Of a stretch of 64,000 nt of DNA, positions 51,097-56,901 are shown one piece after another; positions within the stretch are counted from its first letter, which is position 1, and every line of letters starts with the position of its first letter. Position numbers and translations under genes: made by a program. Under the pieces are notes generated by a model. That model was given only the letters and a program-made list of their open reading frames with translations, had not been told where the DNA came from and searched no databases. The stretch spans positions 50,382-114,381 of the forward strand of contig JAFTYU010000003.1 of assembly GCA_017461235.1 (NCBI GenBank). The letters run 5' to 3'. Source of the stretch: Clostridia bacterium. Its GTDB lineage: Bacteria > Bacillota > Clostridia > Oscillospirales > Acutalibacteraceae.

Positions 51097-51125
51097 TTGA
51101 TATTTGTTATGTTTATTGATATAAT
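51097..51125 (+). promoter_or_regulatory. Promoter of the CPBP-tadA-luxS operon
   Basis: TTGATA (51097-51102), 17 bases, TATAAT (51120-51125), 33 bases before the ATG. Confidence 0.75.
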
Positions 51126-51158: not shown

Positions 51159-52556
51159 ATGGAAAACACGACCACTAACAACATCCCCAATGAACAGAAT
51201 ATTGCGGCTGAGCCTGTGGACACACACGTTCCCGATTCAGATACCGTTCAGGCGAACACTCACCCTGCTGCACCTTCCGAGCCACACCTTCACAACGTTG
51301 CACGTCCGGAAAATGCGCCTGTTAACAATTCCGCATTCTATAATAACTATACGAGACAACCCGGTACTATTGCTTACAATGTTCCGGCATATACCCCTGC
51401 GGCACAACAGCCTATTTACAAAAACACTTCTCAGGCACCCGCTCAATCCCCTGCCGCAATCTACAACAATACCCGTGCAGGCGGCTCTGCTCCCCAATAT
51501 CATTACGGCAATCCTACTGCACCCGGAATAATTGACAACGAATATTACCGCCAACAGCAGTTAAAAGCTCAACAGAACAAAAAAGATGCCAAGACCATAC
51601 GTACTTTAGGTAACATTGCAGGTCTTGCCATCATAATCTGTTTCCTTCGCTCAATTTTTATGTCGTCGCTGATACCGTTTATTCCCTTCGCAATGGATAT
51701 TTACAATGCCGGTACGGGCGGACTGTTTCTTATAAATATGTTCTACTCCGTTTTTGGTGTTGGCTTGGTATTTTTAGTTTTGCACTTTATATTAAAAGGA
51801 CCTAAAGACAGAACCACGGGCGAGAAAAAATACGAATCCTCCATTTCTCTCGGAGCACCAAAAAAGCCGTTCAAATCACTTCTTCTTATTTTTATCGGTT
51901 TCGGCGGCTGTATGATTGCAAACTTTGTCATATCATACTTATTCGCCTTCCTTGAAAGCTTCGGCTTTGACTCGGGCTATATGGATACGGAAAATCCTGC
52001 CGGAATCCTTGAAACAATAGTTATGTTCCTTGGTATTGCGGTAATTCCGCCTCTTATTGAAGAATTCGCAATGCGTGGCGTGCTTGTGTCATCTATGCAA
52101 AAATACGGAAACGCCTTTGCAATTCTTGCAACAGCCTTCGTTTTCGGTTTATTCCACGGCAATTTCACACAGATTCCCTTTGCGTTCATCTGCGGTCTTT
52201 TCTTCGCTTACGTAACTATCGCGACGAAAAGCTTATGGCCTGCTATCATTATACACGCCATGAACAACGGCTTATCCTGTATTTCAACCGTTCTTACTCA
52301 GCACTTTGATGAAAATGCAAGTAATATTTTCTTCTATGTTGCGGCGTTAGGCGGTATTGCTCTCGGAGTTATTTCTCTCGTTATTTACCTGATTGCCTAT
52401 AAAAAAGACTTCGTTCTCAAAAATCCCGGCAGAATCCCCCATTTTTCACTTGCTAAAAAATTCAGAAAATTCTTGAGTGCTCCTGCTATGATTATCGCTA
52501 TGGTCCTTTATGTAGGTCAGGCTTTTGTTCTGGCGGTTGCATCATCCTTTATGTAA
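51159..52556 (+). CDS. CPBP-family intramembrane metalloprotease (CAAX protease-like)
   Basis: A 465-residue membrane protein. Residues 1-145 are a hydrophilic proline-, alanine- and asparagine-rich cytosolic tail, probably disordered. About eight membrane helices follow. The CPBP/Abi motifs are complete: EEFAMRG (EExxxR), FGLFHGN (FxxxH) and HAMNNG (HxxxN). It probably cleaves proteins or peptides in the membrane; in other bacteria relatives serve bacteriocin immunity or signalling. It is first in an operon with tadA-luxS: its TAA ends one base before the tadA ATG. Confidence 0.88.
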   Translation: MENTTTNNIPNEQNIAAEPVDTHVPDSDTVQANTHPAAPSEPHLHNVARPENAPVNNSAFYNNYTRQPGTIAYNVPAYTPAAQQPIYKNTSQAPAQSPAAIYNNTRAGGSAPQYHYGNPTAPGIIDNEYYRQQQLKAQQNKKDAKTIRTLGNIAGLAIIICFLRSIFMSSLIPFIPFAMDIYNAGTGGLFLINMFYSVFGVGLVFLVLHFILKGPKDRTTGEKKYESSISLGAPKKPFKSLLLIFIGFGGCMIANFVISYLFAFLESFGFDSGYMDTENPAGILETIVMFLGIAVIPPLIEEFAMRGVLVSSMQKYGNAFAILATAFVFGLFHGNFTQIPFAFICGLFFAYVTIATKSLWPAIIIHAMNNGLSCISTVLTQHFDENASNIFFYVAALGGIALGVISLVIYLIAYKKDFVLKNPGRIPHFSLAKKFRKFLSAPAMIIAMVLYVGQAFVLAVASSFM

Positions 52557-52557
52557 T

Positions 52558-53490
52558 ATGAAAAAATCTTTTATGGAAGAAGCGTTGCGCCTTGCAGAGC
52601 TGGCTGCCTCCGAAGGTGAAGTCCCCGTAGGCGCAGTTGTCACAATCGGTAATAAAATCATCGGCAGAGGAAGAAACCATCGCGAAAAAGGGAAAAACGC
52701 TCTGCACCACGCAGAAATAGAAGCTATTAACGAAGCGTGCAGACGTCTCGGTGGATGGCGACTCTGGGAATGTGAGCTTTTCGTCACCTTAGAGCCGTGC
52801 CCTATGTGTGCCGGAGCTATAATCAACGCAAGGATAAAAAACGTTGTATTCGGTGCTTTTGATAAAAAGAACGGAGCCTGCGGCTCCGTAACAAATCTTT
52901 TTGAAAGCAGTTTCAGTTACACCCCCGATTACGAAAGCGGTTTTATGGAAAACGAGTGTGCCGATGTGCTTTCGAGATTCTTTAAAACCCTGCGGTCAGA
53001 TACTCAAAAAAATAAAAAGAAGAAGGAAAATAACTGTATGGAAAAAATTGCAAGCTTTACCGTTGACCACACAAAACTAATGAGAGGGATGTATATCTCA
53101 CGCATTGACGGCGACGTTGTTACATACGATATAAGAACAAGACGCCCAAATGTTGAAGACGTTATGGAAAACGGTGCTATACACACCCTTGAGCACCTCT
53201 TTGCAACTTTTGTCAGGAACAGTGAATTTAAAGATAATATTATCTACTTCGGTCCAATGGGCTGCAGAACAGGATTTTACTTTTTGACTACGGGTATGAC
53301 CCACGCACAGGCCCTGCAGCTCACAAGAGATGCCCTTGCTTTCACCGAAAATTTTGAAGGCGATGTACCGGGAGTGAGTGCTGTAGAATGCGGTAACTAC
53401 CGCGATCACGATCTGGAAGGTGCAAAAAAAGAAGCCGCCGCCCAGAAAGAGATTCTCAAAAACTGGACTACGGCAGATATGATTTACTGA
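52558..53490 (+). CDS. tadA: tRNA adenosine deaminase TadA, reading frame continuous with LuxS
   Basis: A 310-codon open frame. Residues 1-150 are TadA, which changes A34 of tRNA-Arg(ACG) to inosine: zinc-binding motifs HHAEIEA (HAE) and LEPCPMCAGA (PCxxC) are intact, and the length to residue 150 matches stand-alone TadA. A lysine-rich linker (QKNKKKKENNC) then leads in frame into a complete LuxS starting at M161. The join crosses a run of seven A (53006-53012); one more A would place TAA right there and end TadA normally. Whether a 310-residue fusion is made, or two proteins, is open. The start ATG is one base after the upstream stop. Confidence 0.85.
   Translation: MKKSFMEEALRLAELAASEGEVPVGAVVTIGNKIIGRGRNHREKGKNALHHAEIEAINEACRRLGGWRLWECELFVTLEPCPMCAGAIINARIKNVVFGAFDKKNGACGSVTNLFESSFSYTPDYESGFMENECADVLSRFFKTLRSDTQKNKKKKENNCMEKIASFTVDHTKLMRGMYISRIDGDVVTYDIRTRRPNVEDVMENGAIHTLEHLFATFVRNSEFKDNIIYFGPMGCRTGFYFLTTGMTHAQALQLTRDALAFTENFEGDVPGVSAVECGNYRDHDLEGAKKEAAAQKEILKNWTTADMIY
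53038..53490 (+). CDS. luxS: S-ribosylhomocysteine lyase LuxS (internal start)
   Basis: From ATG 53038 a 150-residue LuxS of normal length is encoded. It cleaves S-ribosylhomocysteine to homocysteine and DPD, the precursor of autoinducer 2, and recycles the methyl-cycle product. The metal ligands are in HTLEH (HxxEH) and the later ECGNY cysteine, and the catalytic cysteine is in GPMGCRTGFY. GAAGGA lies 10 bases before the ATG, so LuxS can be translated on its own even though the upstream frame is open. A terminator follows directly. Confidence 0.92.
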   Translation: MEKIASFTVDHTKLMRGMYISRIDGDVVTYDIRTRRPNVEDVMENGAIHTLEHLFATFVRNSEFKDNIIYFGPMGCRTGFYFLTTGMTHAQALQLTRDALAFTENFEGDVPGVSAVECGNYRDHDLEGAKKEAAAQKEILKNWTTADMIY

Positions 53491-53491
53491 T

Positions 53492-53525
53492 AAAAAGAAG
53501 GCTCGCTGAGTGAGCCTTCTTTTTT
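53492..53525. terminator. Bidirectional terminator after luxS
   Basis: AAAAAGAAGGCTC pairs with GAGCCTTCTTTTT over a 7-base loop and continues as a T run. It separates luxS from the convergent PHP gene, whose stop lies inside the T run. Confidence 0.85.
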
Positions 53526-54685: not shown

Positions 54686-55717
54686 ATGAATAACTTGGTT
54701 TATGTAGCTCTCAGTGGCGGTGTTGACTCTGCAGCCGCGGCAATACTTCTGAAAGAACGCGGATACGAGGTCCGCGGCGTTACATTGCGCTTAAAGCCGC
54801 ACAATCTCGCAGATGCAGACATTGCCGATGCACAAAAGGTTGCGAACAGATTAGGTATCCCCCTGGATATTCTCGACGAACGTGAAAGCTTTAAAGCTGT
54901 TACAGATTATTTTTGCGAGTCCTATCTTCAGGGTCTTACACCCAATCCCTGTGTTTTTTGTAACCCCAATATTAAAATCGGCAAGCTCGTTGAGCACGCT
55001 CTCAGAAACGGGGCTGATTTTATTGCAACGGGACACTATTCCGACATAATCGTAAAAGACGGCATCTATTATATTAAAAAGAATCCTACGGGCAAGGATC
55101 AGAGCTACTTCCTTTGCCGATTAAACCAACATCTTCTCTCTCACGTGATGTTCCCTTTGAGTGATTTGTCAAAGGAGGAAATCCGCGCCCTTGCTCAAAG
55201 CAGAGATATTGAAGTAGCCCATAAAAAAGACAGTCAGGAAGTCTGTTTTATTCCTGACAATGCCTATATATCCTTCATTGAAAAGGAGTTTAAGCCCAAG
55301 GCTCTCTGCGGTGATTTTTTGTCCACCGACGGCAAAAAGCTCGGTACTCATCAGGGCATTTATAAATACACCATAGGTCAACGAAAAGGTCTCGGCGCTT
55401 TCGGTAAGCCTATGTATGTTATATCAATAAATCCCGAAAACAACTCTGTCACAATCGGTGATAACGAAGAGCTTTTTACAAGCAAAATTTTCGTTGATGA
55501 TTTAAGCTTTCTTTCCGGCAGAGCCCCTGCCGACAAATTTGAATGCCTTGTTAAAATCCGTTGTGCAGCAAAGCCTACGAAAGCGAATATAAAAATCGTC
55601 AACAACGGTGCAATTATAGAATTTGACCAACCACAACGGGCGGCGGCACCCGGACAGACAGCCGCAATTTATATTGACGATATTTTAATAGGAGGCGCAA
55701 CAATATGCAATCCTTGA
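54686..55717 (+). CDS. mnmA: tRNA-specific 2-thiouridylase MnmA
   Basis: A 343-residue ATP-pyrophosphatase that thiolates U34 of tRNA-Lys, -Glu and -Gln. The PP-loop is ALSGGVDSAAAA near the N-terminus. The catalytic cysteines are in PNPCVFCNPNIKIG and SQEVCFIPDN. KDQSYFL and YTIGQRKGLG are conserved. It is slightly shorter than the usual 355-370 residues, mainly in the N-terminal half. It overlaps the serine dehydratase gene by 13 bases. Confidence 0.93.
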   Translation: MNNLVYVALSGGVDSAAAAILLKERGYEVRGVTLRLKPHNLADADIADAQKVANRLGIPLDILDERESFKAVTDYFCESYLQGLTPNPCVFCNPNIKIGKLVEHALRNGADFIATGHYSDIIVKDGIYYIKKNPTGKDQSYFLCRLNQHLLSHVMFPLSDLSKEEIRALAQSRDIEVAHKKDSQEVCFIPDNAYISFIEKEFKPKALCGDFLSTDGKKLGTHQGIYKYTIGQRKGLGAFGKPMYVISINPENNSVTIGDNEELFTSKIFVDDLSFLSGRAPADKFECLVKIRCAAKPTKANIKIVNNGAIIEFDQPQRAAAPGQTAAIYIDDILIGGATICNP

Positions 55718-56901
55718 AAAAACTTTACAAGGTCGGTATAGGCCCTTCAAGCTCTCATACAATGGGACCGCAGTATGCTGCGGAATACGTTAACAACAAG
55801 TATCCCGAAGGGGATTTTGTGAAGGTTACTCTTTACGGCTCCCTTGCCCTGACGGGTGAAGGTCACGGCACTCATACCGCTCTTTCTTCTACCCTGAAAG
55901 CGAAAAATGAAATAGCTTTTAATATTGAAGAAAAGGATTTACCCCATCCCAACACATTGGATTTTGAGATTTTCAAAGAAAATGAAAAAATCGCAACAGT
56001 ACGTGCAATGAGCATCGGCGGCGGTGAAATTCGCATTGAAGGTGTGCCCGACGTTACCGCACCCGAGGTTTATCCGCAGAAGAATTTTGAAGAAATAAAA
56101 GATTATTGCCTTATGCACCACTTAAGATTAAGTGATTACGCGGCAAAATATGAAGGTGAAGAAATTTTCCCCTTCCTTAAATCCATTTGGGAACGTATGA
56201 AAATGACTGTACGCGAAGGTCTTTATCAGGAAGGCATTTTGCCCGGCGGACTTGAAGTTGAAAGAAAGGCAAAATACCTATACGCTCAACGTCATATGGA
56301 CGAAACTCCCGAAACACGTGAAAACAGGCTCGTATGCGCTTACGCGTATGCCGCAAGCGAACAAAATGCAGGCGGCGGTATGATTACAACCGCACCGACC
56401 TGCGGTGCATCAGGTGTTCTGCCGGCAGTTCTTTACTATATGCAAGAGAAAAAAGGCTTTACAGATTTTGAAATTGCAAAAGCCCTTGCAACAGCAGGCA
56501 TAATAGGCAACGTTGTTAAACAGAACGCATCCATAAGCGGCGCGGAAGCAGGTTGTCAGGCAGAAATCGGTACAGCATGCTCAATGGCGGCGGCAGCTCT
56601 CGCGGAGCTTCATTTTATGGACCTTGACCAGATTGAATATGCCGCAGAAAACGCTATGGAGCACTATCTAGGCCTTACATGTGACCCCATCTGCGGTCTT
56701 GTTCAGATTCCCTGTATAGAAAGAAACGCCGTTGCAGCTATGCGCGCTATCAACGCTCTCAGCCTTGCGAACTTCCTTACCGCCACGCGAAAGGTGAAGT
56801 TTGACACGGTTGTTGACACTATGTACCAGACAGGAAAAGATTTAAAACACCACTACCGTGAAACAAGCGAAGGCGGTCTTGCAGTAAATTACGAGATGTA
56901 A
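55705..56901 (+). CDS. sdaA: Iron-sulfur L-serine dehydratase (single chain)
   Basis: A 398-residue enzyme that deaminates L-serine to pyruvate and ammonia. The N-terminal beta domain has GIGPSSSHTMGP and the C-terminal alpha domain has PTCGASGVLPAV, ISGAEAGCQAEIGTACSMAA and CDPICGLVQIPCIERNA, with the cysteines that bind the oxygen-labile 4Fe-4S cluster. Both domains are fused in one chain, somewhat shorter than the roughly 455-residue enterobacterial form. GGAGG lies 9 bases before the ATG inside the end of mnmA. Confidence 0.92.
   Translation: MQSLKKLYKVGIGPSSSHTMGPQYAAEYVNNKYPEGDFVKVTLYGSLALTGEGHGTHTALSSTLKAKNEIAFNIEEKDLPHPNTLDFEIFKENEKIATVRAMSIGGGEIRIEGVPDVTAPEVYPQKNFEEIKDYCLMHHLRLSDYAAKYEGEEIFPFLKSIWERMKMTVREGLYQEGILPGGLEVERKAKYLYAQRHMDETPETRENRLVCAYAYAASEQNAGGGMITTAPTCGASGVLPAVLYYMQEKKGFTDFEIAKALATAGIIGNVVKQNASISGAEAGCQAEIGTACSMAAAALAELHFMDLDQIEYAAENAMEHYLGLTCDPICGLVQIPCIERNAVAAMRAINALSLANFLTATRKVKFDTVVDTMYQTGKDLKHHYRETSEGGLAVNYEM

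Follow-up and report, generated by a model that had tools for sequence, protein, structure and literature searches.

In the 64,000-nucleotide stretch of Clostridia DNA analyzed here (the window), the genes for TadA and LuxS are joined in a single open frame that runs from the ATG at 52558 to the TGA at 53488-53490 and encodes, in order, TadA, a linker and LuxS. The existence of this fused frame is nearly certain: translation and Pfam matches confirmed the original prediction that it passes from TadA with its zinc motifs through a linker into LuxS without a stop codon. We consider it probable that the locus represents a conserved stop-loss fusion of neighboring genes, giving a TadA-LuxS protein and, by internal initiation, free LuxS. 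The new points are the pairing of TadA with LuxS and the kept internal start; the parts themselves are ordinary. Among the papers listed by a targeted literature search, which covered few subscription journals, none reported a TadA-LuxS fusion, and the word 'luxS' does not occur in the main text of one gene-fusion survey (PMC4921024). The locus comprises the following features, given in window coordinates.

51097..51125, + strand: sigma-70-like promoter match before the Rce1-like gene (TTGATA, 17, TATAAT, with TG before the second hexamer)
51159..52556, + strand: upstream gene, Rce1-like (CAAX/CPBP-type) membrane protein (PF02517, 76.7 bits, cut-off 22.4)
52558..53490, + strand: fused tadA-luxS frame (310 residues and a stop)
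52558..52995, + strand: TadA domain, residues 1-146 (Pfam, Foldseek, alignment)
52996..53037, + strand: linker, residues 147-160 (species alignment; pLDDT <50 for residues 153-169)
53006..53012, + strand: A7 run, not conserved among fused species
53022..53027, + strand: GAAGGA, Shine-Dalgarno-like, within the linker (-6.2 kcal/mol)
53038..53040, + strand: retained luxS start codon (ATG in 11/11 fused species with intact LuxS)
53038..53487, + strand: LuxS domain, residues 161-310 (Pfam, NCBIfam, alignment)
53492..53524, + strand: terminator-like hairpin after luxS (15 pairs, T run)

The gene order in the window is mnmE, dut, zapA, the Rce1-like gene and tadA-luxS, and the stop of the Rce1-like gene lies one base before the tadA ATG (TAA-T-ATG). 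The promoter match at 51097-51125 agrees with the consensus at 11 of 12 positions. Together with the hairpin, this promoter-like site would give one transcript carrying the Rce1-like gene plus the fusion; such scans are weak evidence, the region containing 12 promoter-like sites versus 7.9 in shuffles. The genome from which the window derives consists of 43 contigs (2.15 Mb, 94% estimated completeness) and has a single TadA-LuxS match; within an assembly of that completeness, no second tadA or luxS was detected at E 0.001.

The TadA half matched the Pfam model MafB19-deam over residues 3-146 with 133.8 bits (cut-off 27), and dCMP_cyt_deam_1 also exceeded its Pfam cut-off. The NCBIfam equivalog NF008113 missed its cut-off (135.2 of 150 bits) but was still the best deaminase model in that collection. 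The zinc and proton-shuttle motifs, HHAE and PCPMC, are complete, and Foldseek ranks 1-8 were all tRNA adenosine deaminases with TMt of 0.84-0.94. The closest known systems are the TadA proteins of Bacillus subtilis (7cph, 46-48% identity) and Staphylococcus aureus with RNA (2b3j, 44%), with TMt of 0.88-0.94; they share the zinc motifs HAE and PCPMC, and their C-terminal FFK-LR helix aligns with that of the present protein. The five aligned PDB TadA chains extend no more than about 15 residues beyond the match, whereas here the linker and a full LuxS follow. The fold and motifs of this half are those of a tRNA A34 deaminase, which points to a predicted deaminase activity on A34, and tRNA-Arg(ACG), the TadA substrate, is encoded in the genome (locus L213). 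In the alignment the tail of Escherichia coli TadA is Lys-rich as well, so an extension of the TadA C-terminus may be tolerated. According to PMC10454642, tadA (yaaJ) is dispensable in Bacillus subtilis; by analogy, dispensability here would further loosen the constraint on the fusion.

The LuxS half matched the Pfam LuxS model PF02664 over residues 163-297 (167 bits, cut-off 27) and the NCBIfam LuxS model NF002604 (173.5 bits over 158), and it missed the cut-offs of nine other NCBIfam LuxS subfamily models. The metal and catalytic residues of LuxS lie in HT-EH, the cysteine of GCRTG and the cysteine of ECGN; they are intact in 11 of the 12 fused species described below, the exception being G021. 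Most of the chain aligned with LuxS of D. radiodurans (1inn/1vgx) and B. subtilis (1j98), including the HTLEH and GCRTG motifs, with a Foldseek TMt of 0.75 against 1vgx. Elsewhere LuxS is a stand-alone chain, but here it also makes up the C-terminal part of a larger frame. LuxS is a homodimer with the active site at its interface. The genome encodes an MTA/SAH nucleosidase, the enzyme that makes the LuxS substrate (TIGR01704, 83.7 bits, cut-off 73.8), and nothing in it scored above the cut-off for AhcY; S-ribosylhomocysteine is thus probably converted to homocysteine by LuxS. An AlphaFold model of the fusion as a single chain (mean pLDDT 77.8, pTM only 0.59) contains two folded domains, with pLDDT below 50 between residues 153 and 169; the 14-residue linker itself is Lys/Asn-rich.

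We surveyed 22 genomes of the genus, 20 of which gave a match. The full fused frame is present in 12 of the 22, the closest relatives of the window included (G000, which holds the window, G018, G009, G016, G017, G011, G012, G020, G008, G007, G003 and G021), in line with the true fusion that the original prediction had listed among three explanations. In five genomes tadA and luxS are adjacent but separate: in G010 the luxS ATG is in frame with tadA but comes after a stop and one further codon, and a single base lies between the tadA stop and the luxS ATG, in different frames, in G005, G013, G014 and G015. The unfused adjacent species (L023, L024, L025, L026) carry the luxS Shine-Dalgarno-like site inside the 3' end of tadA. 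The two genes occupy different places in three further genomes (G001, G002 and G004). A stop after TadA in close relatives had been named at the outset as an observation that would count against fusion; the closest relatives are all fused, and the stop does occur in the more distant members of the genus, five with adjacent genes and three with the genes apart. Genomes G006 and G019 had no tadA or luxS match; they are counted in the 22 and left out of the junction counts. The G019 contig ends 1.4 kb from mnmE, too near to hold the genes, and G006 is also without an mnmE match.

The named records contribute six fused loci from five genomes in two MAG series, RGIG8488, RGIG7203 and RGIG8724 from water deer and water buffalo gut, and SIG569 and SIG568, and the contig names of the fused records suggest different assemblers. 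Two contigs of G017 (C29 and C54; loci L006 and L022) have equal-scoring fusion and mnmE matches, which probably reflects redundancy in the assembly and not a true duplication; the second copy was not counted separately.

Outside the genus, no fusion was found among the matches listed for 391 other genomes of the family and 298 other genomes of the phylum, both being samples of larger groups. These matches are ordered from the best downward, and any fused frame would outrank the single-domain matches listed. A check of adjacency elsewhere, at 108 loci (L032-L134 and L198-L202), with flanks of about 1.5-3 kb that more distant neighbors would escape, revealed a TadA motif in 79 and a LuxS motif in 34. 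Both motifs occurred at eight loci (L032-L039), whose contig coordinates agree with genomes of the genus.

The linker was compared in 11 fused species. These species were picked for being fused, and the search found no unfused member in their main clade, where G019 was unreadable; the linker, Shine-Dalgarno and simulation counts do not include G021, since it lacks a luxS start. The linkers have drifted to a mean pairwise identity of 24.5%, versus 81% in the remaining protein, and their lengths of 42, 45 or 48 bases differ by whole codons. Over the 45 bases before the luxS ATG, in-frame stops are found in 0 of 165 codons, and the other two frames contain 3 of 154 and 21 of 154. In a neutral simulation at third-position rates, all 11 linkers stayed open in 1.6% of runs for 9 codons and 0.13% for 14 codons. 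The corresponding fractions were 7.9% and 1.8% at half that rate and 23% and 10% at a quarter of it, so at these slower rates open linkers are less surprising. Omitting G003 (10 species) gave 2.4/0.25% at the full rate, 11/3.8% at half and 28/16% at a quarter. Adding insertions and deletions to the simulated changes should lower the open fractions.

The luxS ATG is kept in all 11 species although the residues preceding it vary, and the GAAGGA and the ATG at 53038 that the original prediction had assigned to luxS are present in the window, ten bases apart. Predicted pairing with the anti-Shine-Dalgarno sequence at the luxS ATG averages -7.7 kcal/mol in the 11 fused species (range -5.8 to -9.5), which overlaps the range of -6.2 to -8.9 kcal/mol for luxS in eight unfused relatives. 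For 83 other internal ATGs in the same genes the mean is -3.0 kcal/mol (rank test versus the luxS ATG, p 1.3e-6), and 13 of the 83 reach -5.8 kcal/mol, the value of the weakest luxS site. Codon shuffling gave p values of 0.008-0.08 per species for the Shine-Dalgarno-like site. Synonymous recoding of the linker peptide produced an equally strong site with p 0.017-0.30 per species (combined by Fisher's method, p 7e-5, the species not being independent); such sites recur often enough that part of the signal stems from the Lys/Glu-rich peptide. Ranked among all 281 codon positions, the site comes only 39th in G009 and 49th in G016. The RNA around the luxS start is hardly folded (-2.4 kcal/mol).

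These figures bear on an alternative in which only the fused chain is made, all LuxS activity comes from it, and the ATG and purine-rich stretch are remnants or by-products of a Lys/Glu-rich linker. It draws on the unfused relatives, whose comparable pairing energies would make the site an inheritance from the unfused state, and on the frequency with which synonymous recoding yields an equally strong one. Against it stand an ATG in 11 of 11 species while the linker drifted to 25% identity, and the contrast with the other internal ATGs; we regard this alternative as unlikely. Judged from these sequence features, both the fusion and free LuxS are likely made, and internal initiation at the retained luxS start, which the original prediction did not name, is the more likely source of two products.

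The tadA start, defined as the methionine nearest the first conserved motif, has a weak or absent Shine-Dalgarno site in all 11 fused species (-4.3 to +3.4 kcal/mol). The stop of the upstream gene lies at most 4 bases from it in the 11 and 11 bases away in G021. A weak site with an upstream stop close by suggests that tadA initiation is coupled to translation of the upstream Rce1-like gene. Under a stop-loss fusion with internal initiation, tadA and luxS would once have been neighbors in one operon; loss of the tadA stop would have converted the spacer into a linker and created a single frame, which has been maintained in no fewer than eleven species. The upstream start, which seems to depend on ribosomes that complete the preceding gene, would yield a 34 kDa TadA-LuxS, probably at a low level, and the luxS Shine-Dalgarno-like site and ATG would yield a free 17 kDa LuxS, probably the more abundant of the two. 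The TadA domains could join fused chains in pairs, and the LuxS halves could pair with each other or with a free LuxS. TadA would deaminate A34 of tRNA-Arg(ACG), and LuxS would cleave S-ribosylhomocysteine supplied by the MTA/SAH nucleosidase. A long and a short product from one frame, as proposed here, resembles the N-terminal proteoform pairs that a Salmonella study describes as arising from one gene by an internal in-frame start (PMC11005335). Unlike those pairs, as described there, which are two isoforms of one protein, the short form here would be a complete second enzyme.

The fused frame of G021 (L014:1456-2400) differs from the others in that its LuxS half is without its first residues, including the start. 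It carries HTAAH in place of HTLEH, and the ECGN cysteine is lost in the alignment, two other cysteines being nearby; another contig (L030:335-1024) encodes a second LuxS, which is canonical but of a different type. The altered residues make it likely that the LuxS half of G021 is an apparently inactive pseudoenzyme tail on TadA. In this one case, on a long branch, the start and the catalytic residues are lost together, as expected if the start is kept for the sake of free, active LuxS.

The persistence of the G021 frame after loss of these LuxS residues also speaks against coupled activities. A selected link between tRNA editing and the methyl cycle or AI-2, through mixed dimers or shared dosage for instance, would fit linkers that stay open longer than the neutral simulation at third-position rates predicts, as well as motifs of both halves kept in 11 species. 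Against it, we know of no substrate or pathway shared by TadA and LuxS, the searched samples show the fusion in a single genus only, and adjacent unfused relatives exist. We consider such coupling improbable, and give equally little credence to a particular form of it, a selected two-product unit in which abundant free LuxS and scarce TadA-LuxS would place TadA on mixed LuxS dimers that track the methyl cycle or AI-2. We favor a tolerated stop-loss fusion that gives two products over functional coupling. A conserved TadA-LuxS fusion could mislead gene-fusion logic into inferring a functional link, and naming such a frame from one of its halves would conceal the other.

Another of the three explanations in the original prediction was two products by polymerase slippage at the A7 run, which is indeed present at 53006-53012; slippage of polymerase or ribosome there would yield a mixture of TadA and TadA-LuxS. 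Its arithmetic holds, since one extra A would give CAA AAA AAA TAA and end TadA inside the linker, but it applies to the linker of a single species. As described in PMC1088944, dnaX of Thermus thermophilus gives two products by slippage on nine A; the present locus similarly has an A run within the frame that could give two products, and the same text indicates that shorter runs may slip in some bacteria. Unlike the nine-A run described there, the run here is shorter and is not conserved among fused species: runs of at least seven A occur in 6 of 11 fused linkers, near the 3.6 expected from codon shuffling, and are missing in the other 5. The same source describes evident selection against runs, at a length of nine bases, in many genomes. 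Slippage at A7 as a conserved device was rejected on account of the missing runs, and slippage in general appears very unlikely. The third original explanation, a one-base sequencing or assembly error at a homopolymer run in a draft of 43 contigs, is refuted for the locus by related genomes that are fused in separate assemblies, the nearest of them with different linkers lacking that run, and hardly deserves credence for this genome.

The five states found in the genus, with the genes apart, one base apart in different frames, in the same frame with a stop, fused, and fused with a decayed half, let the path of a gene fusion be traced. In 12 of 12 fused species mnmE is some 2-2.5 kb away from the fused gene, and it is similarly near tadA-luxS in four of the five adjacent species, the exception being G013, where they are on different contigs. 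In the MnmE tree (G001 and G006 left out, G010 partial), the fused main clade neighbors the adjacent clade and fused G003 falls outside both. Support values are low to moderate, and a topology uniting every fused member in one clade gave an AU p of 0.022. The tree of TadA plus LuxS groups G003 with separate-gene species at 63%. A tree of rpoB comprised 14 genomes: G000, G006, G007, G012, G013 and G014 were without a match, and the partial matches of G003 and G016 were omitted. The absence of an rpoB match from the window's own assembly (G000) is at odds with its completeness rating of 94%. The placement of G003 implies either two fusions or one fusion followed by one re-splitting, and both histories fit the trees; re-splitting would be cheap if luxS kept its own start. 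The fusion suggests how stop loss, the last step of operon packing, can be tolerable as long as the second gene retains a start of its own. Elsewhere in the window, an MnmA-type frame (54686-55717) and the next frame, a serine dehydratase (55705-56901), share 13 bases (55705-55717).
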